Source of the DNA: Ichthyosporea sp. XGB-2017a
Taxonomy: Eukaryota; Opisthokonta; Ichthyosporea
Assembly (NCBI GenBank): GCA_002811675.1
Contig: PDIM01010337.1
Coordinates: forward strand, 125,989 to 189,988
Direction: 5' to 3'
Length of the DNA stretch: 64,000 bases
Shown here: positions 12,301-58,777 of the stretch, one piece after another
Layout of the letters: every line of letters begins with the position of its first letter
Numbering within the stretch: position 1 is the stretch's first letter
The notes under the pieces: generated by a model
What the model was told of the DNA's origin: nothing
The model's database searches: none
Seen by the model: the letters and a program-made list of their open reading frames with translations, nothing else
Position numbers and translations under genes: made by a program

Positions 12301-15300
12301 AAGTCCGTCAACGAAGCTAGTCAAAGGTATCTTGTATCAGAGAAACGGTACAATTACACTACACCAAAAACATTTTTGGAATTGATTAAATTGTACAAAG
12401 ATCTTCTTTCAAAGCAAGGTGCAAATCTAATAATGAAGATGGAGCGTTTGGAAAATGGACTTACGAAACTAGAAAGCACTGCCCAGCAAGTTGATGATTT
12501 GAAAGCAAAGTTAGCTACTCAGGAAGTAATTTTGAAACAAAAGAACGATGAAGCAGATGCACTTCTTCAACGAGTAGCCGTTGACACAGAAAAGGTTAAC
12601 GCGGAAAAAAAGATTGCTGAGGGCGAGGAACAAAAGGTCGCTGAAATTACTAAAGAAGTCTCTCAGCAACAAGCCGATTGTGAAAAGGATCTAGAGGCTG
12701 CCGAACCTGCTCTTGTTGCCGCGCAAGAGGCTTTGAACACTTTGAACAAAAATAATTTAACAGAATTGAAATCCTTTGGTACACCCCCAGACTCAGTCGT
12801 AATGGTCACAGCCGCTGTTATGGTGCTGCTCAACCCACCAGGTAAACTTCCAAAAGACCGAAGTTGGAAGGCTGCCAAAGGTATGATGAACAAAGTAGAC
12901 AGTTTCTTGGACGCTCTTATTACTTTTGACAAGGAGAATATTGATAAAGTCAATCTTACTGAGGCCCAAAACAAATACTTGACGAATCCCGAGTTTGACC
13001 CCGAATTTATTCGCTCAAAATCTGCAGCCGCTGCTGGTCTTTGCTCTTGGGTGAAGAACATTATTGGTTTTTACCTCATATTTTGTGATGTTGAGCCTAA
13101 AAGAAATGCCTTGGCAGCTGCTAATCAGAAACTAACTGAATCGCAAGAAAAACTTGCTGTTATCAAGGCTAAAATCGAAGAGCTTGATGGAAATTTGGCA
13201 GAGCTCACAGCAGCATTTGAGAATGCAACAAATGAAAAGCTACGCTGTGAAGAAGAGGCTACCTCTACACAAACGACTATCGTTCTTGCAAATCGACTTG
13301 TTAATGGCTTGGCTTCAGAGAAGATTCGATGGGGAGAAACTGTCCAATCTTTTAAAAAGCAAGAGGAAACTTTGGCTGGAGATGTGCTCTTATCGACGGC
13401 ATTTATCTCATACGTTGGATGTTTTAGCAAGAGTTACAGAAGTGATTTACTTGACAACAAGTGGAGGACATTTCTGAAAGAACAGAACCCAATAATCCCA
13501 TTAACCGAAGACTTGGACCCCTTGGAACTATTATGTGACGATGCCATGATTGCTACCTGGAACAATGAGGGTCTTCCGACAGATAGAACGTCAATTGAAA
13601 ATGCTGTTACTCTGGTGAATGCAGCTAGATGGCCGCTTCTTATTGATCCCCAGTTACAAGGGGTTGAATGGATAAAGAAAAGAGAGGGTGATAGTTTGCG
13701 GGTTGTGAGAATAGGAGCAAAGGGTTACCTTGATACTCTTGAGAAAGCTGTTTCAGCCGGTGATGTTGTTCTTCTGGAAAACATTGGCGAAGCTTTAGAT
13801 CCTGTATTAGATCCTCTTATAGGAAGAAATACAATCAAGAAAGGAAAGTATATCAAATTTGGGGACAAAGAAGTAGAATACGACAGCAGATTTCGATTGA
13901 TTATTCAGACCAAGCTCGCGAATCCTCATTATCCCCCTGAAATTCAGGCCCAAACAACGCTAATCAATTTCACAGTCACACAAGAAGGTCTAGAAGATCA
14001 GCTGCTAGCTGACGTCGTAATTAATGAAAGACCTGATCTTGAAAAGACCAAAGCTGAACTGACAGTGCAACAAAATGAGTTCAAAATTAAGTTAAAGGAT
14101 CTGGAAGATGCACTTCTTTCAAGATTATCTGCGGCCGAAGGAAATTTCTTAGGTGATACAGCCTTGGTTGAGAATTTAGAAATTACAAAACGAACTGCAG
14201 CAGAGATTGAAGAAAAAGTAAAAGATGCTAAGGAAACTGAGAAAGATATTAACTTAACTCGTGAATCCTACAGACCTGTAGCTGCTCGAGCGTCTTTGCT
14301 CTACTTTTTGCTTAATGACCTACAGAAGATAAATCCCATGTATCAGTTTTCTCTGAAAGCCTTTAATGTAGTGTTTCACAAGTCCATTGTCAGCGCTGAG
14401 GCAGATGAAGACGTTAAGCAGCGTGTTCTAAATTTAATAGATTGCGTGACATATTCCGTCTTTATTTACACAACCAGAGGCTTGTTTACCAAGGACAAAC
14501 TTATCTTTACAGCCCAGATGACATTCCAAATCCTCCGTATGAAGAATGACATTAACGAAATTGAGCTGAATTTCTTACTGCAGTGTCCCATTGTTTTAAA
14601 TGTCCGAAGTCCAGTAGATTTTCTCTCAGATTATAACTGGGGGGCTGTGAAGGCTGCCTCAAACTTGGAGGAACTTAGGAACTTAGCCAATGATTTGGAG
14701 GGCTCTTCAAAGCGATGGAAGAAGTTCTGTGAGTCAGAATGTCCTGAGCGCGAAAAGTTCCCTCAAGAATGGAAAAACAAAACTACGCTAGAGAAGCTTT
14801 GCGTTCTAAGAGCCATAAGACCAGATAGGATGACATATGCAGTGACTGATTTTGTTGCCGAAAAACTTGGGACAAAATATGTTGAATCTGCCGATGTCGA
14901 ACTCAGCAAGTCATTTGAGGAAGCGAGTCCGAGCACACCCATGTTCTTTATTTTATCACCAGGAGTTGACCCTACGAAGGCTGTCGAACTTTTGGGTAAA
15001 AAGATGGGATTTAGTGAAGATGCAAATTCCTTTCATAATGTGTCCTTGGGACAAGGCCAAGAGGTTATCGCCGAACAGAAACTTGAGCTAGCATACAAGG
15101 AGGGCGGCTGGGTAATGCTTCAGAATATTCACTTAGTAGTGAAATGGCTACCGCAACTAGAAAAGAAGTTAGAGGCTGTCGCTGAGGGTAGTCATCCTGA
15201 CTTTAGAGTTTTTCTTTCTGCTGAGCCAGCTGGAAATCCAGCAGCGCACGTTATTCCCAATGGCATTCTGCAATCAAGCATAAAGATTACGAACGAACCT

Positions 15301-34959: not shown

Positions 34960-35817
34960 TACGATAAAAACAAAAAACAATCACAACAATGAACGGATTA
35001 TATATGATTCAAAACAATCAAAAAAATAAAAAACCCTCTTTTTCTAATACAACGAAGGGTACGATTTGTGACAAGAAGCAATTTCCGTAAATCAAACCCT
35101 TTACAATGACATAAAAATCAGGGATCCCTTTTGACAAATCCAAAACAAACTCTAATGACACAAAAAACAATCAACAATCCAAACAAACCAACAAAAATTA
35201 AAACTTGACACCGGCTGCTGCTGCCTGCAAAGAAAAAAAAAATTACAACCTCCTTGACACGTCCCAATTTTTCCCCCCCGTTTTTCGGTTTGAAGCATTA
35301 ATTATTGAAAAAGTTTTTTTTCCTTTTTACTTTTTTTTTTCATCATGAGTCGAGTCGCTGTAGCCTTGTTAGCCACAAAAATGAAAATGAAATGATCATT
35401 AATTACCAATATATAGCGCAGCAATAATTTAAGTTGCTCCTCATCACGTTCGAGACTCTTCTTCTCTATTGGACCCTCCATATATTATATTAATGAGGAC
35501 TAGTAGTCTATATATAGATTTGTGAATTGTCGCATTAGTAGATAAAAAATTACTCTTATAAGGGTCTATTTAAAAAATCGATGATGTCAATGAGAAGGGA
35601 AGAAAATGAAAAATTGTACAAGCTGTGCCGTTTCTTGTCCTTCTTATTCGGTTTCGGTTGTTTGGTGGGTTTATTAGAAACAAGAAAATTTGGAAATTTG
35701 GAAATCGGTGTGCTATTAGCCCACTGTAACTGCTTTGAAGATTTCGTAGTTGTATAAGCGGCTCTTGGTGAATTTGTTTCGAGATTGGCTTTCTGAGGGT
35801 GGGGTATAGTTTCAAAG
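34960..35817. other. divergent promoter region, RAB5 and glutamate 5-kinase
   Basis: 858 bp AT-rich spacer with A/T homopolymers. It holds short open frames on the - strand (35556-35930) that overlap the kinase gene and look accidental. No gene was identified. Confidence 0.4.
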
Positions 35818-36930
35818 ATGTTCAATGCACGAGAACAAGCGAAGTGCCTTAGTTCGCCTATGCGAGTAGTTGTAAAGATTGGAAGTTCCAGTGTGGTTGA
35901 TGCTGGAACAAAACAAGTTGCTTTGTCCACTATTACAATGCTAGTGGAGACTGTTTGTTCACTTATTGATGCTGGTCATCAAGTAGTTTTGGTGTCTAGC
36001 GGGGCTGTGGGAATTGGAACGCTAAAAATGGCACTAGAGCCTGGAAATAGATGCGAGGTCACTCGTCGTGCTCTGGCTTCTGTGGGACAAGGAAGGCTGA
36101 TGCGAGTCTATGATGACCTATTCTCATATTATAACAAAAGTATAGCTCAGCTTCTGTTTACACGAAGCGATTTACAAGCAAGTGATCGGTACAAGCGCTT
36201 ACAAAGAACGGTGAACAAAATGCTTGAGCTGGGGGTAATTCCAATCATCAATGAAAATGACCCTATATCCGATCCCGATACCCAGTTCCAAGACAATGAC
36301 CAGATATCAGCTTTGCTTTCTGCTGTAGTTGACGCGGACTGGCTTTTCCTACTGACTGATGTTGATGCCCTATACACGGCAAATCCAAACTCTAATCCAA
36401 ATGCAAAGCCTATCCATGTTGTAGAAGACATCGCCCTTTTAGACAGTGCCATTTCGATTTCTGGAACAATTTCATCTTGGGGAACGGGGGGGATGCAAAC
36501 CAAAGTGAATGCCGCTCGTTTAGCGACTTCCGCGGGCTGCAAAACGGTGATTACTTCGTCTTATTGTCCTCATGACATCATTCGCATTCTGAATGGGGCA
36601 GAGAAAGGTACCGTATTTTTGCCATCAAGTAAACCAGTGAGTGATCATGAGCGATGGATATTAAATTGCTTAGCACCCAAAGGAATTCTTCAGATTAATG
36701 GGACCTTTGAAGGAGGAAATTTGAATCTCAGCCATTTGGAGAGCGTGACAGGATGTTTTAAGGAGGGCTGTTCTGTACGTATTGTAAATTCAAATGGCAA
36801 AGAAATCGCTAGGGGTCTGAGTATACTTTCGTCTGCAGAGCTTCAATCAAAATTGAGCAATGAAATGTTAACAAAGGGAGAAAAAATGGAAATTCGTGTC
36901 ATTGAAGACGAAAATTTAGCGTCCTTCTGA
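35818..36930 (+). CDS. PRO1: glutamate 5-kinase with C-terminal PUA domain
   Basis: First enzyme of proline synthesis (L-glutamate + ATP to glutamyl 5-phosphate), cytosolic. 370 residues, intronless. The amino-acid-kinase domain starts RVVVKIGSSSVVDAG and carries LVSSGAVGIG, the substrate-binding region NENDPISDPD...DNDQISALLS, LLTDVDALYT and the GTGGMQTKVNAA loop. A PUA domain follows (about 280-360; KGCSVRIV-like EGCSVRIVNSNGKEIARGL). Animals and plants carry this activity fused to glutamyl-phosphate reductase (P5CS); here the kinase stops before any dehydrogenase domain, as in fungi and bacteria. Eukaryotic base composition matches the neighbours, so recent transfer is not indicated. Confidence 0.94.
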   Translation: MFNAREQAKCLSSPMRVVVKIGSSSVVDAGTKQVALSTITMLVETVCSLIDAGHQVVLVSSGAVGIGTLKMALEPGNRCEVTRRALASVGQGRLMRVYDDLFSYYNKSIAQLLFTRSDLQASDRYKRLQRTVNKMLELGVIPIINENDPISDPDTQFQDNDQISALLSAVVDADWLFLLTDVDALYTANPNSNPNAKPIHVVEDIALLDSAISISGTISSWGTGGMQTKVNAARLATSAGCKTVITSSYCPHDIIRILNGAEKGTVFLPSSKPVSDHERWILNCLAPKGILQINGTFEGGNLNLSHLESVTGCFKEGCSVRIVNSNGKEIARGLSILSSAELQSKLSNEMLTKGEKMEIRVIEDENLASF

Positions 36931-37039
36931 AAATAAAATTTACAACAATGAAATTAAACTAAATCAGAAACCTTTATATAAAAAGGTATTTTAGTCACCG
37001 CATTCATGCATCAACTAAATCAATGAACAGGACAATGAA

Positions 37040-37660
37040 CAGGATGCAATGACAATGGTTGCTAAGTTTGGTCTACCTCACCTGTTTGTACTGTACAGAT
37101 ACTTTCAATCCAGATTGCGAATTGGTTAAGGCAGCACTTATTGATGACCAATTTCCTGCCGACCCATCAAAGCACTAATAGGTACCGTGGAATATTAACA
37201 GCAAGGTCTTCCTCACTCTCATAACCCTTCCAATATTGATTCATATGCATGGGCCGAAATCCCAGATCCAAAAGAAGAACCCGAACTGTTCAAGTTGGTC
37301 ACACGATTGTTGATTCATCATTGTGATGAATATGGTATAGATAAAAACACAAATCGTTGTAAAAAGGGTTTCCCAAAAGAATATAATAATGACGAAACCC
37401 GTTATCACGCTAATCCTTTTAAGAAGTCTCCCATTTATAGGAGAAGAGATCCTGAAAATTGATGTTTCAGTTTTAGTGTAAACCGCTACAACCACGAAAC
37501 TGAGGGAGTGGAAACGATTACATACACAAATGCAGATGTTGCTGAATATAATCCACAACTGCTATTAATGTTTCACATACATTGCACAGTGGTTATCAGC
37601 GGATGGGTGATTAAATATCTTTATAAATACATGTTTAAAGGTCCCGATTTAATGCAAGGT
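37040..37660 (+). pseudogene. decayed Helitron Rep (Helitron-like N domain) fragment
   Basis: Broken reading frames resemble the N-terminal/Rep region of Helitron Rep-helicases. DAMTMVAKFGLPHLF appears at 37043, then, after a frameshift, TFNPDCELVKAALIDDQFP. Later come YAWAEIPDPKEEPELFKLVT and NRCKKGFPKEY, then a stop inside YRRRDPEN*. After that are AEYNPQLLLMFHIH and IKYLYKYMFKG, the segment that carries the paired tyrosines in active elements. The helicase part and the HUH-rich middle are missing. At least one frameshift and several stops make it non-functional. Confidence 0.75.
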
Positions 37661-38407
37661 CAAACATATTGCAATACTTCACATTCAAATTTGATTTTGT
37701 TCATTTAGTTTGAAGAATGCTTCATGCAGTTATTTGTGTATCCTTTTGGCCTATTTCCTTGATAAAATGTTGTTGAAAAATAGGGTTAAATATTGCATGT
37801 ACTACCGGAAAAAGAAATTGCACGTGACCAAAAGTTCCTAGTTCCTTGACGTAAGGTCGCGGGGTTCCAGCCTCCATCACTATGTAGCTAGGGTCTAGCT
37901 GAGGGAAGTATGCAAAACAATGATATATACAAGTCAATGGCGCCAAAAAATTAAAAATTTCGCCTCGCGAAAACTTGCAAACTCGAGAAAGTGAGAGAAA
38001 TTCATAATTTATAAATTATACAATATATATATTCGTCGTCGTCGCCGCATGGGTCCACCCTAACCCTCCGTTATTATATTACCCTTTATCATCACTCATG
38101 ACACTCTCAGCTGTCCCCAGCCCCTCCCCTATAAATCCCCCGCTAATTCCCATCCACACTACCCCTTCCTTTTCTCGCTCCCCCCGGCCACCCCTGCACG
38201 ATGCTGCATTCGATTCGTCGCGATCGCGCCATTAATTTTGTTTTTCGCCTGATTTTTAGTACAAAATTTCTTTTTATTTTCGGCCAGTTTGTATTTTCAA
38301 GCCTTTTCTTTTTTTGTTGTTAGATTATATTTCTCTATCTTTGATCTAGTGTCGGCCGTTATATGTTAGCAAAAGTGGGAGAGGATATATAATCTATTGC
38401 GCTCATC
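37661..38407. other. spacer and promoter before the orphan tail-anchored protein gene
   Basis: About 750 bp. It includes a (TCG)n-like short run near 38034, a C-rich segment with TATAAAT at 38130-38136, and a T-rich leader. No gene was recognised. Confidence 0.4.
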
Positions 38408-40987: not shown

Positions 40988-42288
40988 GTTCGAATAAAAG
41001 GAAAACAAATAATATAAAAGACACAGTCAGCAAACGCACGTCAAAAACGCCAATATAGATCTTCACCACAATGGAGTCTAGCTCCCTTAATTAATGACTA
41101 CAACATAATTCTAATTTCCCATTGCCCTCTTTTCGAATATAAATCATAAACCACAACAATGCTTTCCATCCATCCATCCATCAATCCATCCCCATCCGAA
41201 TAAAGACACATAACATCAATATAAACCCCAAAACAACCTACCTTTTTATATATTTTTCTGAATCAAATCAATACAACTCTAAAGCTCAAAAGACAATTCA
41301 AAAAATATAAAAAACAAGAAAAAAAAACAAATTAAAAATAATAAAGAAGCGGAATGGGGGACTTTGTTTCTCAAAAATAATTGTAAAAGTATACTACGAA
41401 TTTCCATAGTGAAGCAAACCCCCAATAGTCATTTTCATGCATAACCCTACTCGTCCATGGAAAATGTCACATGTGACAATTATTTTGACATAAAGTCCCT
41501 ATGCATCATGTGGTATTTTGACTACATGTGGGGCCAGTGCTCTCTGCAAAAATATTAGGTTTTAATTTTTAGGGGTTTCGAAAACCTCAGTTTGTAAATT
41601 GTCGGGAAGCGAGTCTAACGTCTTATAGTTGTTGTGCAGCAAGCTGCATAGCATACCATTTATGTCTTTCTGTCTTGTCCATATCAAGGTTTTAAGAGAT
41701 TTTGTTGTTTATATTATATATTGCTCTAGTCGTTTGGCTTAATTTGCACCCAAACTTAAGGTCCTAAGCTGTAAATATTAGAGATGCTACTGCCGCGAAA
41801 CTTTGAAACCTGTGAATTAATTTCGATCACAAATGAATAACACAAAGACAGAAATCCTAGGTCGATTAAAAAAAGGAGCCGTGAATATTATGGGCATTGA
41901 GAAAAGCTATCGCTACCTACGCTTTCAACACGTTTAAGAACCTTGTTGTTTGTCCATGTTCACGTTTAAGCCATGCTCCATCACAATCAGCTGTTACCAT
42001 TGGCTTGACTTGGCTGTAAAGAAACACAATCACTTATCAGCTACCTGTAATGCTGCTTGGAAAAGGAGGCCGAAAGGGAACGAAAAACAAGTCAACAGAA
42101 ATGACAGAAAACAAGCAGACGAGTAGACATGTGTCAAGCATTTACCACAACTGCCAGGTTTAAAAAATGCGTGGTTGATGGCTCGTGGGGGATCTGGGGG
42201 GCTGGGGGGGTCACAATTTATAATACAATGAATGAATGAATTTCCGTTTTTGACCATTTTTAATTTGGTTATAATTGGAAATTTAATA
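40988..42288. other. spacer upstream of NOP58
   Basis: 1.3 kb AT-rich DNA containing a short CCAT simple repeat near 41166-41190. Only short accidental frames are seen. Confidence 0.4.
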
Positions 42289-42367
42289 TTTTGTTTTTTT
42301 CAGGGGTTTTTTTTTTTGGTTGTTTTTTGTTGACGTTGTTGTTGTATTTTTGAGGATCGAGTCTTCG
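42289..42367 (+). repeat. left copy of a near-identical duplicate at the gap edge
   Basis: 79 bp that recur on the other side of the N run at 43255-43334 (80 bp). The two differ by one T in a homopolymer. The copy stops exactly where the Ns begin. Confidence 0.85.
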
Positions 42368-43227
42368 NNNNNNNNNNNNNNNNNNNNNNNNNNNNNNNNN
42401 NNNNNNNNNNNNNNNNNNNNNNNNNNNNNNNNNNNNNNNNNNNNNNNNNNNNNNNNNNNNNNNNNNNNNNNNNNNNNNNNNNNNNNNNNNNNNNNNNNNN
42501 NNNNNNNNNNNNNNNNNNNNNNNNNNNNNNNNNNNNNNNNNNNNNNNNNNNNNNNNNNNNNNNNNNNNNNNNNNNNNNNNNNNNNNNNNNNNNNNNNNNN
42601 NNNNNNNNNNNNNNNNNNNNNNNNNNNNNNNNNNNNNNNNNNNNNNNNNNNNNNNNNNNNNNNNNNNNNNNNNNNNNNNNNNNNNNNNNNNNNNNNNNNN
42701 NNNNNNNNNNNNNNNNNNNNNNNNNNNNNNNNNNNNNNNNNNNNNNNNNNNNNNNNNNNNNNNNNNNNNNNNNNNNNNNNNNNNNNNNNNNNNNNNNNNN
42801 NNNNNNNNNNNNNNNNNNNNNNNNNNNNNNNNNNNNNNNNNNNNNNNNNNNNNNNNNNNNNNNNNNNNNNNNNNNNNNNNNNNNNNNNNNNNNNNNNNNN
42901 NNNNNNNNNNNNNNNNNNNNNNNNNNNNNNNNNNNNNNNNNNNNNNNNNNNNNNNNNNNNNNNNNNNNNNNNNNNNNNNNNNNNNNNNNNNNNNNNNNNN
43001 NNNNNNNNNNNNNNNNNNNNNNNNNNNNNNNNNNNNNNNNNNNNNNNNNNNNNNNNNNNNNNNNNNNNNNNNNNNNNNNNNNNNNNNNNNNNNNNNNNNN
43101 NNNNNNNNNNNNNNNNNNNNNNNNNNNNNNNNNNNNNNNNNNNNNNNNNNNNNNNNNNNNNNNNNNNNNNNNNNNNNNNNNNNNNNNNNNNNNNNNNNNN
43201 NNNNNNNNNNNNNNNNNNNNNNNNNNN
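42368..43227. other. assembly gap (860 N)
   Basis: Unresolved bases. Frames reported across it on both strands are artefacts. The matching flanks suggest an unmerged contig overlap or an unresolved tandem duplication. Confidence 0.95.
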
Positions 43228-43254
43228 TTTCTTCTCTCTGGTTCAAGGGCCTTG

Positions 43255-43334
43255 TTTTGTTTTTTTCAGGGGTTTTTTTTTTTTGGTTGTTTTTTGTTGA
43301 CGTTGTTGTTGTATTTTTGAGGATCGAGTCTTCG
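43255..43334 (+). repeat. right copy of the gap-flanking duplicate
   Basis: 80 bp matching 42289-42367. The right copy continues smoothly into the 5' leader and first exon of phosphorylase kinase alpha; the sequence before it (43228-43254) is not found left of the gap. Confidence 0.85.
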
Positions 43335-43442
43335 AGGATTTTAGAAGTTTTTGAGGTTATCATAGACTCGGTTGTGTTTTCTGTAGGTATTTTCTAGTTC
43401 TTCCTTGCTGAAGAAGACGAAGAAGAGGAGATTTAACACAAA

Positions 43443-46400
43443 ATGATAAAACTTTCTCATGAGAAAAGAGTCGAAAGACTTGACCATTACTTTAAAATAG
43501 GTGAGTTTATTGATTATAAGTATCATAGAAAGGTGGAAAAAGTACGCTCCTTGCGTGTGTCTGATATTAACTTACTTTCCATTCGACCTCTTTGTTTTAT
43601 TTTTTGGGGATGAAATGCTTCTGTAGTTAAACGGTTCATTCTAAATGAGCAGAGTCCCACGACTGGTCTTCTCCCAGCAAGTACAGCTGTGAATAGTCAT
43701 GGTGATTACACAGATGCTTGGGTGAGAGATAATGTTTATGCTATTCTGCCTGCATGGGGTCTTGCTCTCGCCTACCGTAAGGTCGATAATGATAAGGGTC
43801 GAACTTATGAGCTTGAGCAAAGCGTGGTGAAATGTATGAGGGGGCTTTTGTTTTCGATGTTGCGTCAATCCGAAAAGGTAGAAAAGTTCAAATATTCGCA
43901 GAATCCCGCGGATGCTCTTCATGCAAAATATAACGTTTGGACTGGGGGGCCTGTTGTTGGTGATCATGAATGGGGGCACTTGCAGGTAGATGCCACTTCA
44001 GTGTTTTTGCTTTTTTTGGCTCAAATGACTGCGTCGGGGCTGGAGATTATTTTCACGATCGATGAGGTTAATTTTGTACAGAATCTGGTGTACTACATTG
44101 AGAGAGCTTACAGAACTCCTGATTACGGCATATGGGAAAGGGGCCATAAGGGAAATAGTGGTAAACCGGAACTTAACGCGAGTTCCATTGGTATGGCTAA
44201 GGCTGCCCTTGAAGCAATTAACGGACTCAATCTCTTTGGCGAGCAAGGCAACAAACTCTCTATTATTCATGTCGATCCCGATGCCCATAATCGAAACAGA
44301 GCTATTTTATTGTCTTTCTTGCCCAGGGAGTCTAGCTCAAAAGAAACTGATAGCTCATTGTTGAGTGTTATTGGATTTCCCGCCTTTGCTGTTGGAGACG
44401 AAGAGATAGTTACTAACACTAGAAATACCATTATCGAAAAGCTTCGTGGAAGATATGGGTTCAAGCGATTTTTGAGGGATGGCCATCAGTCGGTGTTGGA
44501 AGACAGCAACCGCCTACATTATGAACCTGCAGAGTTGAAAATTTTTGAGGATATTGAATGCGAGTGGCCTTTGTTTTCGTGCTATATGCTTTTGGATGCC
44601 CTTTTCCGCGAAGACGATTTTGCAGTTAGAGAGTATTTAGAATTAACTGAAAGTGTCATGGTAGATAAAGGTGATGTGATGGACCTTATTCCTGAAGTCT
44701 ATTACGTTCCTGAGCATAATGTAGAGGCAGAAAAGAAAAATCCTCACAGTCAGGATAGGCTCCCAAATGATAATGTTCCTCTGTTTTGGGCACAGTCTCT
44801 TTACATTTTATCGAAACTTGTATTGGAGGACTTGATTTCTGTTGGCGAAATTGATCCAGTGGGAAGAAGATTGATTAAAGGTGTGCGTCCGAGACCCAAT
44901 ACCCGCCACTCGGCGTTCAATGTTCAGAAACGTGAAGATCTTGTGGTTCAAATGGTTCTTCTTTCAGATTCAGAGCGCCTAAAAAATGACCTGTCTACGT
45001 ATGGAATCCTCACCCAAACCACGAGAGAAATTGAACCTGTTCAAGTGAAAACACCTGATATACTTGTTGACTTGTACAAAGGATTGGGTGTGAATAAGAA
45101 ATTGCATCTAAGTGGTAGGCCTCCTCGGCCAATGGGTGCACTCGCAACGAGTAAAATATATCGCATTGCTGGTCAAACATTCGCTTTTACTCCACTGATT
45201 CTAAACAAAGACGACTTTTACATGTCACTGGACCAAACTCTACTCATTGACAAAATCAAAAATGAAATCAAATTTATTTGCAACAATTGGTTCATGGTTG
45301 GCCGGCCAACCATGTGCCTTATGCTTACAGAAAACATGATGCGTGGAAAACATTTTTCAAAAATGCTGGAGTTGATGGCTGAGTTCAAGCGAGGATCTTG
45401 TGAGGGCGTCCAAATTAGAGTTGGAAGACTTCAGCAATTGATTAATTGCTCTTGTGTGGAACATCTTGATTTTGTGAGGAGAGAGCAACTAGACGATGCT
45501 ATTGCTCCTGAAGAAGCAACAACCTCAACTATTCTTAAACTGGATAGACAGGGGAGTGTTCGCTTTGCTATGAACCAACGTATGCATTTCCAGAGATCCC
45601 GCAAGAGTGAGTCTGCGGATGACGAGTTAGTTGAACGTGTTCATGAACCCATGGATGATTCTGTTTTAGAAGCATCCCTCTCTTTCGATTGCCGGCTGTC
45701 AAGTGGGCCGGAATTCATGAATATGAAAGAAGAGGGGGAATTTTCGTCCGAAAATTTAGAAAACATCCCAACGGAAGATTTGCTTTTGTCTTTGGAAAAG
45801 TCAACTAATCTATGTGAGCAGGTTAACATGTTGCAATCTCTTCTTGATCGTAAAGGTCCAGATTTCGTTACAGGAATCGGATCCGCAGTTACTGTTAGAG
45901 ATCTTTTAGATGAAGTTTACAACAAAGCTGGAGAGTTGGGACTCTGGTCGATTGTTAGACAGGTAGCAAGTGTGACTACAAAATTTGTTGATTCTTTGGC
46001 TCCCTCAATTACTGAAATGTTGGTGCGAGGAAAAGAAGTTACTATAGGAACTTTTGGATTCCAAGAGTATATTATATCTGAGCCTATTAGCCCAAGTCTG
46101 CTTGTCAAAGTGCTTTACAAGCATTGCTCTTGTGCAGATAGCAGAGAGGCTGTTTTGCAGCAGGAATTGATTCTAAATATCGCGAGTTTTATCACTACCG
46201 TTCCCGCGATGTTTGCTGGTATTATGCGGATTCGTCTTGGTTGGATCATCGAAGCAATGAAATCTGAATTGCAGTTGAGCATGTCGTTAAGAGACAAAGC
46301 GGCTGCAAATGACAAGCTTATGGGCCTTAGCCCTTATGAAATTAAAAATCTCCTAAAGAGGGTATTGACTGCCAACATCGATATAGATGAACCTGAAACC

Positions 46401-47033
46401 AACACCAAGTTGACTAACAGAAGAAGCTTTGCTCCCCCCGAAGTGGATGAATTCGGATCTCTACAGTTTGATTTGCGCAAGTCTAGTGCAGACAAAGACG
46501 ACCAATACCCTGGCAAATGGATCCGTAGGCGTCATTTGGATGGATCTCTGAATAGAGTTCCGGAAAACTTCTATCCACGGGTGTGGGAAGTGCTGTCAAG
46601 ATGTCAAGGACTTGCTGTTTATGACACTGTTTTGTCTGCAAAACCTACTGTTTATGACATGACTGCAAATGAAAAAGGCTTTGCTGTTTTGGTGGAATCG
46701 ATCTTAGAAGGTATCCCGATGCCTGAGAAGAGGCAGCTGATTGTAGAGCTGTTGACTGTTCTGTCTTTTGCTTTCGATCGGTGTCCAAATATGATGGTAG
46801 ACAAGACATTGCATCTGGATGTATTGGTCGAGCGGGCAAAAGACATATATATGTGCGGAATGCCAGAAGATGAATCCGCCTCAAAAAGAGACAGTTATAA
46901 AGCTTCATTTTTTGATTTACCCCCTGCAGGTGACAGTGGGTCGACTTCTTGGTTCTTGGCTGAAGCCATTTGTCAAGACTTATCAGAGTTGCTTCCTGGG
47001 TTAAAAAAAGAAGACATTTGTGTTATTCAGTGA
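43443..47033 (+). CDS. PHKA: phosphorylase b kinase regulatory subunit alpha
   Basis: Regulatory subunit of the kinase that activates glycogen phosphorylase. Exon 1 is 43443-43500, the intron 43501-43626 (GTGAGT...TGTAG), and exon 2 43627-47033, giving 1154 residues (human PHKA1/2 about 1220-1235). The junction restores V-KRFILNEQSPTTGLLPAS, which aligns with the family start. The N-terminal GH15-like (glucoamylase-like) domain includes DAWVRDNVYAILPAWGLALA, LHAKYNVWTGG and GIWERG. The C-terminal region has RRRHLDGSLNRVPENFYPRV. The last four residues, CVIQ, form a CaaX-type farnesylation signal, as in animal alpha subunits (CAMQ). The central Ser-rich phosphorylated region is shorter than in mammals. 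Beta subunit is the alternative; the C-terminal pattern favours alpha. Confidence 0.93.
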
Positions 47034-49704
47034 GTGAGGAGTTTTTTTTGCCAGTTTGCTTTTCATATGGAAAATAAACCAAGTCTTTGAAGTGGGGCTG
47101 TATTTAATTTATTTGAACTGAAACGAATAGTTACTCTTAGTTACTTGTGGACTACCAAAGAATGCATGCGGCCGGTAAGAGATTCCTTGAAACCACAGCT
47201 CATGTTTCTTTGTTCAAAGAATCTTTTGAAGACTTTCTGGAAAGCATTAACAATCCCAGCGATTTTTTTTGTACTCCTCGGAGAAATCGGAAGAACTCAT
47301 GGTCGCTTAGCTAAATTCGAAAGCACAGAGCATGAGCGCGGAGGAGAAACAACTATAACTTACATAAACTCTTCCGAAAATCGGATCTATATATATATAG
47401 AGCCTTTCATGTCCAACCCCTGTGTAGTATAAATTGAGGGTTGGATAAAGTACGAGGCATCATATGTCTTTACATGCAGTAATGGTGATCAGCTGTACAG
47501 CATCATGTAGCAATAACAGCCTTTAACAAATGGTTCTCATGAACATATATATTATATATACATTATGCAAGATCCCTTATTCGCATTTATATAGTAAGTA
47601 CAACTGCAGAACGATGTGTATTTTTTGTACATAATTCATCAATAATAATATTAATTAGCTGATTTTAGTACTCTTCAGCAGCTACCGAATAATCCTTTCC
47701 CTGATAAGGAAGCTGTTTATTTTACCATCGACTGAGCGTTAATATATCATTATCATACCATAATTATGAAAGTAAACTGTGGTAATTAAGTCTGTATAAA
47801 ACATACGGCAGAATTCCGTCTCGCAACTCATTTCATTTAGACAATCACCAACAAAACAAGAAGTTCATTAAAGAACATTTAAGTCGCTCTGAAGACAATA
47901 GTGTTGTAGTTGTCGTGGACTAACACCCTTTTCAATAGTCAGTGTTAGATGATGTTAAAGTCATAGTATACTTGATTTATCTGCTAAGAATTTTTTTCAA
48001 ATAAGAGTTACACTCCCTCTTGACACATCAAATTCACCTAAACTGGTTGCGCGTTGGCTACTGTAGTACAAAACAGAATTTGAAGTGGATCAAAAGCTGA
48101 TGTAATAATTCAAAGATTTTGTATTATTTTACATTACGTTATAATAATTGCTACTAAAATTGGGCATAAAAACTCATGGCCTCATCAGCTATAAGCAGTG
48201 AAGATCTCACCCTAAAAGCCCCTTATAAATCGCGTAATTACATAATTTCCTTAACAAATTACATTATAATTAACATGCGTATAAATTTTAATACCATGCG
48301 TATTTATAAACACGACACCTTCGACAGCTTTTACCTGACCTGACCTGCATGACAGAACTTTATAATTCATGTCGATTTTCCTTTTCCATACAAATCTGGA
48401 AAGTTAACAATTTCAGGCGCGGGCGGCGCTGGGTGTCCAGTCAAATTTTATTCAGACATTATAATAGCACACAAAAGAAAAACTTGACAAATTACATAGA
48501 GGAACATGAAATGGCGCAGACGACGTAAGCTGAACAGCTTTCTACTGACTTATAATAAGCTATTATTATAAAGTGCAGTCGACTGCATGCGCAACTTGTA
48601 GAAGGCCGGGGAGTACAAAGCGCAAGCGCAGCTGTCGATATATAACCAAGGAGATCTCGCTTATTCTTGCATTGATCATGAGTTATAGTCGCGATCGACG
48701 CGGCGTAATATTATAGAGTGCAGCTATCATGAGTTCAACGAGGGAGTTCAAGTACGTTACACGTTTATAATTTCCTCGATTTTTATACTATGCAAATTGC
48801 AATACTGAAATTTTTAATAATTACTTTTGCTACCATAAAATTATTAATAATTATTTTTTTAATTACACAAGTGCACAAGTCACAACTCCTATAAATTATT
48901 ACAACAATTAAGTTTTTTTTTTTCCTTCTTCCTTCTCCTTTAAATTTTCTATAAAAAGTCTTTTTCTCGTAGCTGTACGTACTGGCGGCCAGAGGCGGCC
49001 CGGGGGTAGTTTTTTTTTTTTCCAGAATATTTGCTATCGAACTGCAATGATCGATTACGTCAAAATGGATCTATAAAATCATCGAAATTTCAGATTACAA
49101 AAATCGTAATTTACAGTTACTGTAATTATCAGTAATGACTTTTTTTTAACAGTTTTAATGAGTAAATATTTTTTCTTTCTTTTATTATTAATTTTTTACT
49201 AATTTTTTTAAATTGTACCTGAAAGTTGCGTGACGTTTTTGGATAGGCTGTTCAATACTATATTTTTCATGCCTCGCAATTGCACGAGTACGTCTAACTA
49301 TACAGTTCTACTATAGTGCAGACTACTAGAGTCTTTAGTTTTGGTGTGAAGAAAGTTAGTTAGTTTTTTGGTTGATTCCTCAGAAGGAGGGTGTGATTGA
49401 TTAATTAGTGTTTAGTTTTCTTTTGTTTGCTTGGTTAATCATATTGGAAAGTAGAAGAAGCTCCTTTTCTTTGTTTTTGTTGGTTTTTTTTTTGTTGGTT
49501 TTTTTGTCTTTTGTGTGCTGTTTTTTGTGTGTGTTTACACGCAGACTTTTAGGAAAGGAAGGGAAGAATCAATAGCAAGCACACAAGCAGTCGAGGGTTT
49601 AGATTGTTGTACTTGGTAATACTTTTAAAAAGAAATTAATTATTTTGGGACGTGTTATATGTATTTATAAAGAAGGAAAGAATTGCTTGTATTCATAAGT
49701 CAAA
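47034..49704. other. AT-rich intergenic region before the homeodomain-bHLH gene
   Basis: 2.67 kb, the longest gene-free stretch here. It has TA-rich runs (about 47390-47400 and 47545-47565), A/T homopolymers, and a short GC-richer stretch near 48415-48440. No protein domain, tRNA or repeat family was recognised. Its length fits an extended regulatory region for a developmental-type transcription factor (inference). Confidence 0.4.
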
Positions 49705-51849
49705 ATGGAAACATCAGACGCGAGCAATCCTCCGAAGGAAGAAAATGTCGTACAACCTCAGGCTCAGGTGCACCAGCAGGAAGAAATGAATCCAGCGCAG
49801 CAAGGCAATTCTAATCCTCCGTCCAGACCTATGAGCGTTCCGGCTGGAGCTGATATTAAGACTGAACGTAAAAGCTCTAGCGATTCAAATCAGAAGGAAG
49901 AGGGAATTAGTACATTGAGTAATGATAATGAGGGTTCTGAAGGTACAGGGGCGGATAGAGACTTTCGTAGAAGCCGAATCAGCTTTAGTAGAAAGCAACT
50001 TCATGAATTGGAGCTTGCATTTGAAAAAGATCACATGCCCTCTGTTTCTGATAGGCATGCCTTAGCGCAAAAGTTTGGACTGTCAGAAAAGAGTGTTCGT
50101 CATTGGTTTCAAAATAGAAGACAGAAAATGAGAGAAATTATGCGTAGAAATGAAAAGATCAGAATGTTTGGTGAGGCAGGTGTTCCACCTGATCAAGGAC
50201 CTTCAATGAAAAGAAAGTCGGAGGGCGGATGGGGCCATCCAGAACAGGGGTACCCGTATCCTGGAGGCCCACCCGGTCCAAATGTTCCTATGGAGTTTCG
50301 TCAGCATTATGCAATGGGTAGGTATGGACCTGAAGGCGTTCCCCCTCCAGGATATCACGGTCATCCTGGATACCTTCCGGCTCAACAGTACTCTCAGCAT
50401 GGGGGGCCTGGTAACCCAATGGACTATAGAGGTCCTCCACGTTCCCCTCGCCATGGTCCCGGTCAGGGATATCCTATGGTTCCAGGAGGGTCTCACGGAC
50501 CTCATCAAGGCCATTCACATCTCCCGCCCCCACATATTGGACATTATCCTGGTGCCCCCCCTCATCAAGATGGACATCACCAGGGTGGTCCTCCTCACCA
50601 GGGCGGCCCTCCTCACCAGGGTGGCCCTCCTCACCAGGGTGGTCCTCCTCACCAGGGTGGTCCTCCTCACCAGGGTGGTCCTCCTCACCAGGGTGGTCCT
50701 CCTCACCAGGGAGGTCCTCCTCACCAGGGTGGTCCTCATCACCAGGGGGGGCCTCATCACCAGGGGGGCCCTCATCACCAGGGGGGGCCTCCACATCAAG
50801 GTGGTCCTCCTCATCAGGGTGGTCCCCCTCATCAAGACGGTCCATCTCATCAAAGTGGCCCCTCACACCAAGGCGGCCCACCTCATCCGGGCCATCCACA
50901 AAATGGGCATCCACATCAAGGGCATCAACACCCAGGACACCAACACCAAGGAGAATTTTCTGAAGGGGAGCGTGGACGGCCATATCCACCTGAAGTAATG
51001 TATCAAAACCCTAGATATTCGAATGAGAACCTGAAGGGAAGAGAATATGGTAGCCAAGGGAAGCCAACTAGAGTGAGTCCTGTAGGCGTTTCAGGTGTCC
51101 CTGGAGATTATCGCAAGCGCCCTTCTGATAACAGAACCGAGGAAATGCATAGCAGGTATGAAAATAGCGGTGGGCCTAAGGGGGAAGGAGCTCCATTCCA
51201 AGGAAAATATACTGTGGGCGTAAAGCCGACATTTTCAGGGGGACCAGATGGGGAGAAAGTGCCTAGCATGATACCAGTTCACTACTCTGCGCCTGATAGA
51301 CAAGGAATGGTTGGGAGATATAAGCATCCAGGTCAACAAGGGGATAAGAAAGAAAATATGGAGTATGAAAACAGAGAACTTTCCAAGGTACAGGGTGCTG
51401 ATAGTAAACCCGGAACCCCGATTAAGGGCGAGATAAATGGGGCTGTCTACTCTGAAAAGTCAGACTCTATGCGAACTCCGAGTCCTAATGGAGAGCGCGG
51501 GGGTGAAACGAAGAAACGAAGCCACGCCGATGTTGAAAGAAAAAGAAGGGATGATATTGCAGAACTTATGAGCAGGCTAAGAGAAGTTATTCCGGACTGT
51601 AACGGTACCAGAGCTGTGATTTTAAGAAAAGCTATTGATTATATTAATTATCTTGAGGGCCAAGTTAAGGACTTGAAAGCAGAATATGGGGATAATCGCC
51701 CACAGCCTGTATTCAAAAGCACAGCTCAAGAAGACCAAGAAGCAAGTGAACGGCTAGCGGAATTGGCGGATGCATCTGTAGAAATTGGGAATGGGCCTGC
51801 TGCTCCTTTGACAAATGAAGCAACTGCCCCTGTTGAACAGCAGCCATAA
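49705..51849 (+). CDS. homeodomain-bHLH fusion transcription factor
   Basis: 714 residues in one exon carrying two complete DNA-binding domains. A 60-residue homeodomain lies at about 87-147; helix 3 reads KSVRHWFQNRRQKMRE and keeps W48, F49, N51 and R53, with Q50. A bHLH domain lies at about 603-660. Its basic region HADVERKRRDD has the H-E-R pattern of Max/USF-type factors that bind CACGTG or similar E-boxes; the loop is short and helix 2 ends LEGQVKDLKAEY without a long leucine zipper. The 450-residue linker is rich in Pro, Gly, His and Gln and includes a tandem array of PPHQGG-like hexapeptides (about 285-390). The N-terminal tail is acidic and Gln-rich with a sumoylation-type IKTE; a second, IKGE, precedes the bHLH. 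One continuous frame with uniform codon use argues against an assembly fusion. DNA targets and partners are unknown. Confidence 0.93.
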   Translation: METSDASNPPKEENVVQPQAQVHQQEEMNPAQQGNSNPPSRPMSVPAGADIKTERKSSSDSNQKEEGISTLSNDNEGSEGTGADRDFRRSRISFSRKQLHELELAFEKDHMPSVSDRHALAQKFGLSEKSVRHWFQNRRQKMREIMRRNEKIRMFGEAGVPPDQGPSMKRKSEGGWGHPEQGYPYPGGPPGPNVPMEFRQHYAMGRYGPEGVPPPGYHGHPGYLPAQQYSQHGGPGNPMDYRGPPRSPRHGPGQGYPMVPGGSHGPHQGHSHLPPPHIGHYPGAPPHQDGHHQGGPPHQGGPPHQGGPPHQGGPPHQGGPPHQGGPPHQGGPPHQGGPPHQGGPHHQGGPHHQGGPHHQGGPPHQGGPPHQGGPPHQDGPSHQSGPSHQGGPPHPGHPQNGHPHQGHQHPGHQHQGEFSEGERGRPYPPEVMYQNPRYSNENLKGREYGSQGKPTRVSPVGVSGVPGDYRKRPSDNRTEEMHSRYENSGGPKGEGAPFQGKYTVGVKPTFSGGPDGEKVPSMIPVHYSAPDRQGMVGRYKHPGQQGDKKENMEYENRELSKVQGADSKPGTPIKGEINGAVYSEKSDSMRTPSPNGERGGETKKRSHADVERKRRDDIAELMSRLREVIPDCNGTRAVILRKAIDYINYLEGQVKDLKAEYGDNRPQPVFKSTAQEDQEASERLAELADASVEIGNGPAAPLTNEATAPVEQQP
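50563..50880 (+). repeat. 18 bp coding minisatellite (PPHQGG array)
   Basis: About 18 tandem copies of an 18 bp unit near CCTCCTCACCAGGGTGGT. Central copies are almost identical; outer copies are degenerate (PHHQGG, PSHQSG). All keep the reading frame of the surrounding protein. The repeat makes the other frames open too, which explains long spurious frames there. Confidence 0.95.
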
Positions 51850-52697
51850 GTGCTTCGTTTACAGTTCAAAGTTCCATTTCTCTTTGTATTGTAGTTTCAC
51901 CGTCTATCACTCTCCATGTCCAGTACCTATTGAAGTTTTGCGCATTCTTGTTTGCCATTTCTAGTCATACACAGCTCAGGCTTAATGCCCTGTACTAAAG
52001 CTACCCGTTAAATAAAGCACGCATGTAAATTGCTGATTTAGAATTTCTATAGCTGAGCAATATAAACATTGTAGTTATTTCGTTCAAAGTGTGACAAAAC
52101 AACTTACTCGTCTTGGTCAATGTGCACGTTGTAAGGTTTTCATTCAATTGCAGAAGGTTACCGTTCGAATGTCGCCAATATCGAATAAGGAATATAGCAC
52201 GATTAAGCCTCAATCCTTATTACAGTGGTCCCAGGTCCTTCTCGTCTAAACTCAAGGTACTAAAATATTTGTGGATATTGGAAGTTAGAATGCTATTCGA
52301 CTTGGAACCTCAATTGATCTATATAAGGTAACTCATATTTCCTGTTTTGGACTTTTGTTGCCATGGACCCGAAATGTTCATTTTATTTATTTTCGCAGTA
52401 CGTCGTATAGTGTCGACGCGTAGCAGTTTCATTTTTATTTAGAAGTCCTTGAAGTTTTATTTTATACTTCGCTATGTTATCTTTCTGTTGCAGCTTCTGC
52501 TCTTGCATTGACTAATTCCCCCTCTTTTGAGGCTTTCATTTTAAACGGATTCGCTCTCGGCTTTGGTTTTGGTTTGATTGCGCAAAAGAGCTATTCCTAA
52601 AGTCGAGCTCCGTATTTTCCACCGTCAAAGCCCTAACGCAGCCCTAAAAAAATTGAACAACGAGCCACAAGAGCATTCAAGACACACTACTCGTGTT
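51850..52697. other. spacer and leader before the W-motif protein gene
   Basis: 848 bp. Pyrimidine tract-CAG sites near 52400 and 52491 could be acceptors of a 5' UTR intron but no matching exon was confirmed. The frame opened from 52578 begins at TTG. No other gene was seen. Confidence 0.35.
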
Positions 52698-54230
52698 ATG
52701 AACGATAGCAGTGAAGTGGCAGACATTCCAGCGGAAAAAGCTGTAAACTTAGCTCGAGAACGGTGGCAAATGGCCCTGAAAAGAGTTAAAATAGACTTAA
52801 AAATGGAAAACCTTAGTCTGGAGAATGATTCCCAAGAAACTGCTGAGACCAAGGCAGATTTAAGTGAACATACAGAGCGCCCATTGAGCAAGCAAAACTC
52901 CTCTAACAGCGTTTCAGAACAAGGTAAAAACAAAACGAAAGTACGTTATAAGAAAAGAAGTGAATCACGGGCAATGAAAATGTGGCTTTCTGCAGCAAAT
53001 CAAAAACTGCAAGAATACGAAGACATGACAAATACGGGACCCAGCGTAGTCAAGAAAACATCGAAACATCAGCTAAACGAAGTTCTTAAAATGAAAGAGA
53101 AGCAGAGTCTGTCATTAGAACAAATGAGGCGACCATACACAGGGGGGAGCATGGAACCTTCAAAAGAAAAGTATTGCAGGGACTCGGAAATAAGTGCGAT
53201 TGCAGCCGTGAGATTCCACAATATAGAGAAAAAAAGGCAGCTTGAATATGAGATCGAGTATTACAAAAACAAAGCTGAAAAAGAAAAGGCCGCACGTGAA
53301 AGGAGGCTTTTAAAAGAAAAGGCCAGGAAAGAAAAGAAAAAGAAACAAAAACTGGCAAAACAAAAGTCTCAAGCAGCAAGAAAACGCAGCGATGACGATA
53401 ATGACGATAATGACAACTATGGCGATGATAACAGAAGCAATAGTGATTGCCATGATGGAAGTGATAGCATTGGGGAAGGGAGAGGGGGATACGACGGGTC
53501 ACATGGCGATGGCTCATGTGTCGATAAAAAGGATGATGAAGGCGACAGCAGTAATGATCACGAGGGTAAGGACCAAGGAGATAAACATCAAGATAATTCT
53601 GAAAGACAAATGCAGGCGAAGGGTCCCGCCAGTGACTCCCCCTGGAAAGCGGTCAAATGGCATTTGCTCAGCAGCAAGAAAAAAGAAGCACGTTCCTTAA
53701 GTCCAGAATTGGTCAAACGTGCCCTGTATGTTAACAAACGAAGGGCTGCAAGCCAAAGTCCTCCGCCCCCAGTTTCACGAGGAAAAGATTTGTGGTCAAA
53801 ATCGAAAGCAAAGCTTCTGAAAGGACAAAACAAGAACCTCAAAATGTGGCACGATGTTACGGAAAGGTTACACAAAGCGCACAATAATGCAAAATCAAAA
53901 AATGCGGTTCAGGTGGATAAGCATGACATGTTCCACAGCGCAGAGGAATGGAAAACTATCGCCATGGAAGATTCAAAAGAACAATGGTCAACACATGAAG
54001 AGTCTTCAAGCTTTTATGAAGATGGACTTGGAAGCGCAGTTTCTCAGGCTCTTAAGGCACTTGCTCAACTTAAGCTCAAGGAAACGGCAACTATATCAGA
54101 AAAGAACACAAAGCCTGAAGAAGAACCTTTAGCTAAAGTAAAGACCTTTACCGACACGAAAGAGAAATTCAAGGGGCCATGGGAACGCTTAAAGAGTAAG
54201 CTTCTCAACGGGGAACTTGCTTCCGTCTAG
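52698..54230 (+). CDS. orphan Lys-rich protein with repeated W motifs
   Basis: 510 residues from ATG 52698; the frame is open from 52578 without another ATG. I recognise no family. A basic coiled coil (about 205-260) is followed by an Asp/Asn/Gly-rich acidic stretch (about 260-320). Short Trp-centred segments recur along the chain: RWQMALKRVKIDL, MWLSAANQKLQEY, PWKAVKWHLLSS, LWSKSKAKLLKG, MWHDVTERLHKA and PWERLKSKLLNGE. The last closes the protein. They share W, then K/R, then a Leu pair, suggesting a degenerate repeated amphipathic module. Composition favours a nuclear or cytoskeletal protein (inference). Its stop lies 37 bp from the stop of the convergent methyltransferase gene. Confidence 0.75.
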   Translation: MNDSSEVADIPAEKAVNLARERWQMALKRVKIDLKMENLSLENDSQETAETKADLSEHTERPLSKQNSSNSVSEQGKNKTKVRYKKRSESRAMKMWLSAANQKLQEYEDMTNTGPSVVKKTSKHQLNEVLKMKEKQSLSLEQMRRPYTGGSMEPSKEKYCRDSEISAIAAVRFHNIEKKRQLEYEIEYYKNKAEKEKAARERRLLKEKARKEKKKKQKLAKQKSQAARKRSDDDNDDNDNYGDDNRSNSDCHDGSDSIGEGRGGYDGSHGDGSCVDKKDDEGDSSNDHEGKDQGDKHQDNSERQMQAKGPASDSPWKAVKWHLLSSKKKEARSLSPELVKRALYVNKRRAASQSPPPPVSRGKDLWSKSKAKLLKGQNKNLKMWHDVTERLHKAHNNAKSKNAVQVDKHDMFHSAEEWKTIAMEDSKEQWSTHEESSSFYEDGLGSAVSQALKALAQLKLKETATISEKNTKPEEEPLAKVKTFTDTKEKFKGPWERLKSKLLNGELASV

Positions 54231-57496: not shown

Positions 57497-58777
57497 TTAC
57501 TCAACAAGTTTGTATATGTGGTTTTGTGTGCCATGTTCACTACCACTGACTTCAAAAACATACGCAATGCAGAGCAAGATTTCATTAGTATCATCATTCG
57601 TAACCAGCTGCAAAACCGAAAAATTCTCCAACACAGAGTTCATCATTTCCTTGTTCTCGAGAGCCTTCAGCTTTTCCACAAAACTGATCATGTATTCACA
57701 CATTGGGGAGCGTGAAAAGTTGTAACTAAATTTACCATTCTCGGGTGTAGAGTATTCCGTTTGAATCTTTTCCACGACCTGTTTCCCAAATGAGCACACC
57801 TTTGTGGAGAGCTTCATATTCATGGTTTCATCACTCACAAATTTGGATGAAATACCATAGAAACTCTGGCTTGCTTGTTCGTAGCTAATATCAGCCCAGA
57901 ATTTAACTAGAAAAAAGGCATTCTGGGGTCCCTGTGTATATCTTTCTTTCAGCCCTGGGAATTTATCATATATTTGTCTGATATCTACATATTCCATTGC
58001 GGGATCAGTAAACGCATGAGGGTTATTCAGATTGCAAAACAGATGCTTGTAGTATGAATCCGTATTATCTAAGCGATATTCCAAATATGCCGAAAAATCA
58101 ACCATTTTTGCTCTCAATCTGTCATACCCATAACCAGTATCTCCTGCAAGTTGTTGATCAGCCATTGAAGCCAGATGATTCAAATCGTAACCATTGCCGC
58201 CAGCGGCATGAGGCTTTGCGCCTTCATAGTAATGATTTCTCTCACCACTAATAATAAATAAAAATAGACATCATACAAAGGTTAGATTCCAATCCAATAA
58301 CTTATAGAAAAGTAACCAATACGCACATACACAAACAAATACATACTTTTCCCAACCATGCGGATGATCACGCTCTTGTTCATTGTTATATTCACCTTCG
58401 TAGCCGCCATTGTCTTTTTCGTCTTTGGATGCTTTTCTTGAAGTCATAGTTGCAGACACAATCTGGGCGGAAGACATTGAAGTTAAGTTATCCAAAACAG
58501 CCATTTGGGTTACTTCATCACAATTTTCACGCAGTTTCACTGTTAAATCTCTTTGCTTTTTTCTCGCTAATACTTGTATGTGGCTAGATACTTGTTTTCG
58601 GGATCTCTGCTTCCCTGTTCTCATTTTAATATACCGGGCAATAAGCTCGTTTCTTCCAAACATTTTTCCTTCATCAGACAAAATAATCTTACGCCTACCG
58701 CAAGGTGGGTATATCGCCAGTGCTTCCTCAAAAGCTTCTTCTATGTCTTTCGACCAAACTCCATCCGCTTCCGACAT
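57497..58777 (-). CDS. TEAD: TEAD/Scalloped transcription factor (two exons)
   Basis: DNA-binding effector of the Hippo pathway. Exons 58347-58777 and 57497-58247 flank a 99 bp intron (GTATGT...ATTAG), giving 393 residues (human TEAD1 426). The TEA domain is at about 5-80: [20 protein letters not shown], the [11 protein letters not shown] segment, and the recognition helix [14 protein letters not shown] glycine/asparagine-rich linker crosses the intron. The YAP-binding domain (about 180-393) preserves [26 protein letters not shown], the [14 protein letters not shown] segment with the cysteine that is acylated in animal TEADs, [18 protein letters not shown] and the [13 protein letters not shown] end. 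Conservation in the co-activator domain implies a Yorkie-like partner elsewhere in this genome. Confidence 0.97.

Follow-up and report, generated by a model that had tools for sequence, protein, structure and literature searches.

A single uninterrupted open reading frame in the window (the whole stretch of DNA analysed here, 64 kb in length) encodes both a homeodomain and a bHLH domain, apparently an undescribed pairing of two familiar domains. To judge from this frame, the two are likely to be fused at the protein level. Our preferred interpretation, to which we give a probability of roughly 60%, is that the product is a transcription factor whose bHLH dimer sits on CACGTG and carries two homeodomains on flexible arms, which would read nearby TAAT sites. 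The features on which the argument draws are as follows.

47034..49704, no strand: upstream intergenic region of 2.67 kb, holding 11 of the window's 26 TAATTA and no CACGTG
49705..51849, plus strand: homeodomain-bHLH open reading frame, 714 codons, TAA stop
49963..50142, plus strand: homeodomain of the 60-residue type, residues 87-146, with R5, W48, F49, Q50, N51, R53 and an unusual H47
50143..51504, plus strand: linker of 454 residues (147-600), 21% Gly, 19% Pro, 10% His and 8% Gln
50577..50887, plus strand: 18-bp tandem repeat within the linker, about 17 copies, encoding GGPPHQ units
51511..51657, plus strand: bHLH domain, residues 603-651, basic region H607, E611, R615
51658..51708, plus strand: post-HLH stretch, residues 652-668, by eye a possible short coil and no long leucine zipper
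52011..52016, plus strand: AATAAA, 162 bp 3' of the stop codon, with no other AATAAA and no ATTAAA on the plus strand in 49001-53000

An in-frame stop stands just 5' of the ATG, at 49696, and the frame itself contains no N bases. The sole N run of the window (42368-43227, 860 N) lies elsewhere, and the open reading frames called across that run (42269-43363 and 42320-43300) are artefacts. Both domains match their Pfam profiles well above the cut-offs: the homeodomain over residues 88-143 (PF00046, 67.1 bits against 22.9, E 1.2e-18) and the bHLH over residues 603-651 (PF00010, 42.6 bits against 20.7, E 5.2e-11). The initial annotation, which had described one unbroken 714-codon frame holding a canonical homeodomain with WFQNRRQK and a Max/USF-like bHLH with an H-E-R basic region, is upheld on all of these points by the profile scores, the key residues of the homeodomain and the alignments of the bHLH with Max and USF2.

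The homeodomain keeps WFQNRRQK intact and has L16 and F20 in addition to the residues listed above, the position numbers being those that we take to apply to R5, L16, F20, H47, W48, F49, Q50, N51 and R53. Its best single-match sequences in the PDB are of the PRD class (Paired, 49.3 bits; Aristaless, 45.2; Pax3, 43.0), the double-homeobox entries heading the match list because each of them matches twice. The domain falls outside the TALE group, whose marks are an insertion of three residues separating the first two helices and a match to Homeobox_KN: by residue numbering there is no insertion, and Homeobox_KN reaches 19 bits, below its cut-off of 24. No LIM domain is present in the protein at E <= 1 (Pfam), which places it outside the LIM-homeodomain proteins as well. 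An AlphaFold2 model of the homeodomain (mean pLDDT 74.1) has the three helices, and the top Foldseek rows for this model include CRX, ALX4, PHOX2B and Aristaless, with a best E of 1.1e-3 and no match at or below 1e-3. TALE-like stretches occur elsewhere in the genome, a 684-residue frame carrying four Homeobox_KN stretches (L012, G000:C239, about 35640-37691) and another frame two of them (L011, G000:C107, minus strand, about 10717-12720), the 4341-residue length of the latter frame probably reflecting continuation through bases read as N.

The closest PDB matches of the bHLH are Max (3.4e-7) and then USF2 (5e-6). H607, E611 and R615 align with the basic region of Max and conform to the group B H-E-R pattern; their counterparts in Max are presumably H28, E32 and R36, where both this numbering and the rule that H-E-R marks CACGTG binders are assumptions of ours. 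No PAS, Orange or COE domain was found in the protein at E <= 1 (Pfam). AlphaFold2 places helices at residues 633-661 and 674-692 with low confidence, and its model of the bHLH is poor (pLDDT 65.9, pTM 0.26), matched nothing and is uninformative.

bHLH proteins bind as dimers, so a homodimer of this protein would carry two homeodomains. In the mechanism that we propose, one mRNA and one protein would be made from 49705-51849; the protein would act in the nucleus and homodimerise through its bHLH, the homodimer would grip CACGTG via H607, E611 and R615, and the two homeodomains, on long flexible arms, would read TAAT sites near the E-box. The arms would be provided by the 454-residue linker, which is likely to be disordered, given its composition. 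The fusion would then do in one chain what bHLH and homeodomain partners of animals do as two. In humans, composite sites are bound by bHLH and homeodomain proteins that are separate chains, with spacings of 3-6 bp named in the accessible part of PMC12119339, and the ALX4 homeodomain in the TWIST1-TCF4-ALX4-DNA structure 8osb is 46% identical to the present one over 56 columns. Because bHLH and homeodomain proteins act in this way as separate partners, the reading of composite sites, or the placing of two homeodomains on DNA, is by analogy plausible for a protein that has both domains.

We searched 25.06 Mb of genome sequence (291 contigs) for predicted sites of this kind, namely CACGTG within 15 bp of TAATTA and CACGTG near ATTAAT or TAAT, each with a reversed control. 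Taken together, composite sites are not clearly in excess: CACGTG lies near TAATTA at 28 places (reversed control, 34), near ATTAAT at 17 (28) and near TAAT at 305 (396), and the comparison of TAATTA with ATTAAT, reversed counts included, gives odds of 2.0 (Fisher p 0.12). A spacing of 2 bp is found in 7 of the 28 TAATTA places (binomial 0.0014), or in 5 of 26 when each palindrome is counted once (p 0.021, uncorrected). For TAAT the same spacing accounts for 32 of 305 places (0.0031, or 0.05 allowing for 16 spacings), against 22 of 396 in the reversed control, which has no excess (Fisher p 0.02). The symmetric motif TAATTA-N2-CACGTG-N2-TAATTA occurs at 9 places with up to 3 mismatches, 2 of them perfect, none with one or two mismatches and 7 with three, and its reversed control at 12. 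Both perfect palindromes were noticed post hoc; the number expected is about 0.004 from the densities of the window, which has only 4 CACGTG, and 0.43 (P 0.07) at the TAATTA-rich rate of the gene's own upstream region. We regard these statistics as a lead and not as evidence of binding: they are weak and suggestive, and point, as do the 11 of 26 TAATTA upstream of the gene, in the same direction as a model in which the two kinds of site are read jointly.

The two perfect palindromes (L039 1501-1522 and L040 1501-1522) are both intergenic. That on C150 sits between two divergent open reading frames, and that on C22 (L039) lies about 65 bp past an open reading frame, within a longer inverted repeat that could form a hairpin. 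Their flanks resemble one another mainly in being T-rich and of low complexity.

The absence of an overall excess would also fit a frame that encodes one protein with domains that work independently, the homeodomain and the bHLH (with a partner, for example a Max-like protein of this genome) serving different genes and the linker coupling their abundance only. A linker of 454 residues sets no spacing, and bHLH frames that appear Max-like by eye are present in this genome (L015 and L018), both of which fit such an arrangement. The mild excess of 2-bp spacing and the two perfect palindromes speak against it, and we consider it unlikely.

The region upstream of the gene is rich in TAATTA, with 11 copies against 2.9 expected, a count that none of 1000 shuffles reached; the control word ATTAAT occurs there 5 times, which 193 of 1000 shuffles reached. 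Among overlapping tiles of the window, the two over this region hold 9 and 8 TAATTA and all others 3 or fewer. TAATTA ranks 14th of 1580 6-mers by z-score in the region, where ATAATT (10 copies; 0 of 1000 shuffles), TTATAA (10; 1 of 1000) and TATATA (9; 0 of 1000) are enriched to the same degree. Since the region is so rich in TAATTA, the gene probably responds to homeodomain factors; that such factors regulate it, and that its own product may be one of them, is a reasonable supposition. A far more specific proposal can be framed, in which this protein would found a class of homeodomain-bHLH factors, its homodimer on CACGTG clamping two TAATTA at a symmetric 2-bp spacing, regulating its own promoter and representing a one-chain form, evolved among the near kin of animals, of the bHLH-homeodomain partnership for which animals use two proteins; taken as a whole we hold this to be doubtful.

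The preferred reading of one protein acting through both domains supposes that the frame is expressed as a whole. It could instead comprise two adjacent genes or transcripts that share a frame, or be spliced so that the domains end up in different products, and what speaks for this is the outcome of our protein-database searches, which gave no full-length match to the protein even though the species is included. Among proteins of about 393-1250 aa, none of 448 candidates was a relative when searching from residues 590-714, and none of 30 when searching from residues 60-170. A LIM-homeodomain protein encoded elsewhere in this genome (C134) served as the positive control and returned 10 proteins from 209 candidates, including EukProt Nk52_evm60s152, to which the C134 frame is identical over 539 residues; this match indicates that the database covers eukaryotic homeodomain proteins and this species. 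Since the homeodomain-bHLH protein was itself not returned, the public gene set probably lacks it or contains it only in split or truncated form, and a split or truncated model would escape a search filtered by protein length. This failure is the main evidence against regarding the fusion as settled.

The sequence between the two domains argues against separate genes, containing neither a stop nor, in a plus-strand scan of 49001-53000, any AATAAA or ATTAAA. Residues 399-600 of the linker are free of stops in frame 1, with 7 and 24 stops in the other forward frames, and none of 2000 dinucleotide-preserving shuffles of this part was stop-free (mean 11.1 stops). Residues 148-292 are also stop-free, as were 13 of 2000 such shuffles (mean 4.4 stops). 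Within the repeat (residues 293-398) none of the three forward frames contains a stop, which makes the stop test uninformative there. A frame open by chance across the linker is ruled out by these tests outside the repeat.

Nor does the linker resemble the T-rich introns of this genome, in so far as four of them represent it: its T content is 0.19 and its GC content 0.55 (0.29 T in its most T-rich 90 bases), compared with 0.37-0.48 T and 0.31-0.36 GC in four example introns of 87-107 bases, of which that of L009 was confirmed by protein and those of L021, L026 and L029 were placed by eye. A donor-branch-acceptor scan predicted no intron in the frame, but it recovered none of the four example introns and is thus uninformative. 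The GTGAGT at 51073 is the sole match among the donor hexamers GTAAGT, GTGAGT, GTATGT and GTACGT, and the intron density of Chromosphaera is given as 0.7 per coding kb in the accessible part of PMC5560861. On balance, a division of the two domains between different products seems improbable to us.

The initial annotation had also named an assembly join at the repeat as a way in which the fusion could prove false, and such an artefact, by which two loci would have been joined at the GGPPHQ repeat, is a very remote prospect: the domains are indeed separated by about 310 bp of tandem repeat, and a run of 860 N stands elsewhere in the window, but the repeat 24-mer, when up to 3 mismatches are allowed, has 12 occurrences, all of them within this array, in the 25.06 Mb of a probably partial genome sequence, the longest exact repeat within the array (68 bp) is shorter than the k=121 of the published assembly (accessible part of PMC5560861), if that is the same assembly, and the frame is open on both sides of the repeat.

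The sequence searched is smaller than the published 34.6 Mb (accessible part of PMC5560861), so it is probably partial and our census of its domains incomplete; within it we count at least 5 homeodomain and at least 17 HLH matches, and only the frame at 49705-51849 has both. A literature search, whose scope took in few subscription journals, found no described protein with a homeodomain and a bHLH, and none appears in the accessible parts of PMC5560861, PMC8061703, PMC6040629, PMC6981761, PMC12695648 and PMC12119339. Pattern searches of genome contigs (102 matches) and of viral contigs (14 matches), neither well suited to finding a eukaryotic gene, gave no confirmed case. The earlier statement that no described family combines these domains thus holds within the literature and the protein databases searched.

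The genome is very likely that of the ichthyosporean Chromosphaera perkinsii, a unicellular organism closely related to animals, given the identity with Nk52_evm60s152 and the listing of an Nk52 identifier for this species in the accessible part of PMC6981761; the smaller size of the sequence searched counts mildly against this assignment. The window also encodes the YAP-binding domain of a TEAD-type factor (YBD, Pfam; 57500-58183, minus strand) and a dynein heavy chain of axonemal type, which would fit a flagellated holozoan. Two further frames, both read without intron models, join a bHLH to unusual partners: one combines a bHLH with two receiver domains of the response-regulator type (L017, G000:C103, about 46167-47930; Pfam), and the other a bHLH with PB1 and CRAL/TRIO (L025, G000:C168, about 227313-228860; Pfam), though this last could be two genes run together. 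Such odd partners suggest that bHLH domains may have been shuffled in this lineage, which would make the single case less surprising and the genome more interesting. The diversity of domain combinations in Chromosphaera is the highest among ichthyosporeans according to the accessible part of PMC5560861, and the present frame adds to the unusual pairings of DNA-binding domains in this organism.

The homeodomain-bHLH protein would probably recognise two types of regulatory site simultaneously, a task for which animals are known to use two proteins. If this is true, the natural fusion would mean that a single chain can have cooperation between bHLH and homeodomain built into it, and it would offer a single-protein system for studying the spacing grammar between two types of site.

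With the bHLH-Zip proteins Max and USF the protein has in common the H, E and R of the basic region and the HLH, but no long zipper is seen here by eye, and there is a homeodomain at the N-terminal side. PRD-like proteins (Paired, Aristaless, ALX4) supply the nearest PDB sequences of the homeodomain; unlike them, this protein is without PAIRED or OAR (Pfam), has H47 and is fused to a bHLH. C134 (Nk52_evm60s152), the LIM-homeodomain protein mentioned above, likewise has a 60-residue, non-TALE homeodomain with Q50, 30% identical over the matched stretch, but carries a LIM domain and no bHLH. As for cooperation between the two kinds of domain, the bHLH here is of the Max/USF-like (H-E-R) class and that of TWIST1-TCF4, as we take it, of the Twist-like one. 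In the animal cases found (8osb and the accessible part of PMC12119339), such cooperation on composite sites involves separate proteins. TWIST1-TCF4 with ALX4 (8osb) and the CAP-SELEX pairs (accessible part of PMC12119339) bring a bHLH dimer and a homeodomain to one composite element, as is proposed here, but they do so as separate proteins that meet on DNA, whereas here both domains lie in one chain.
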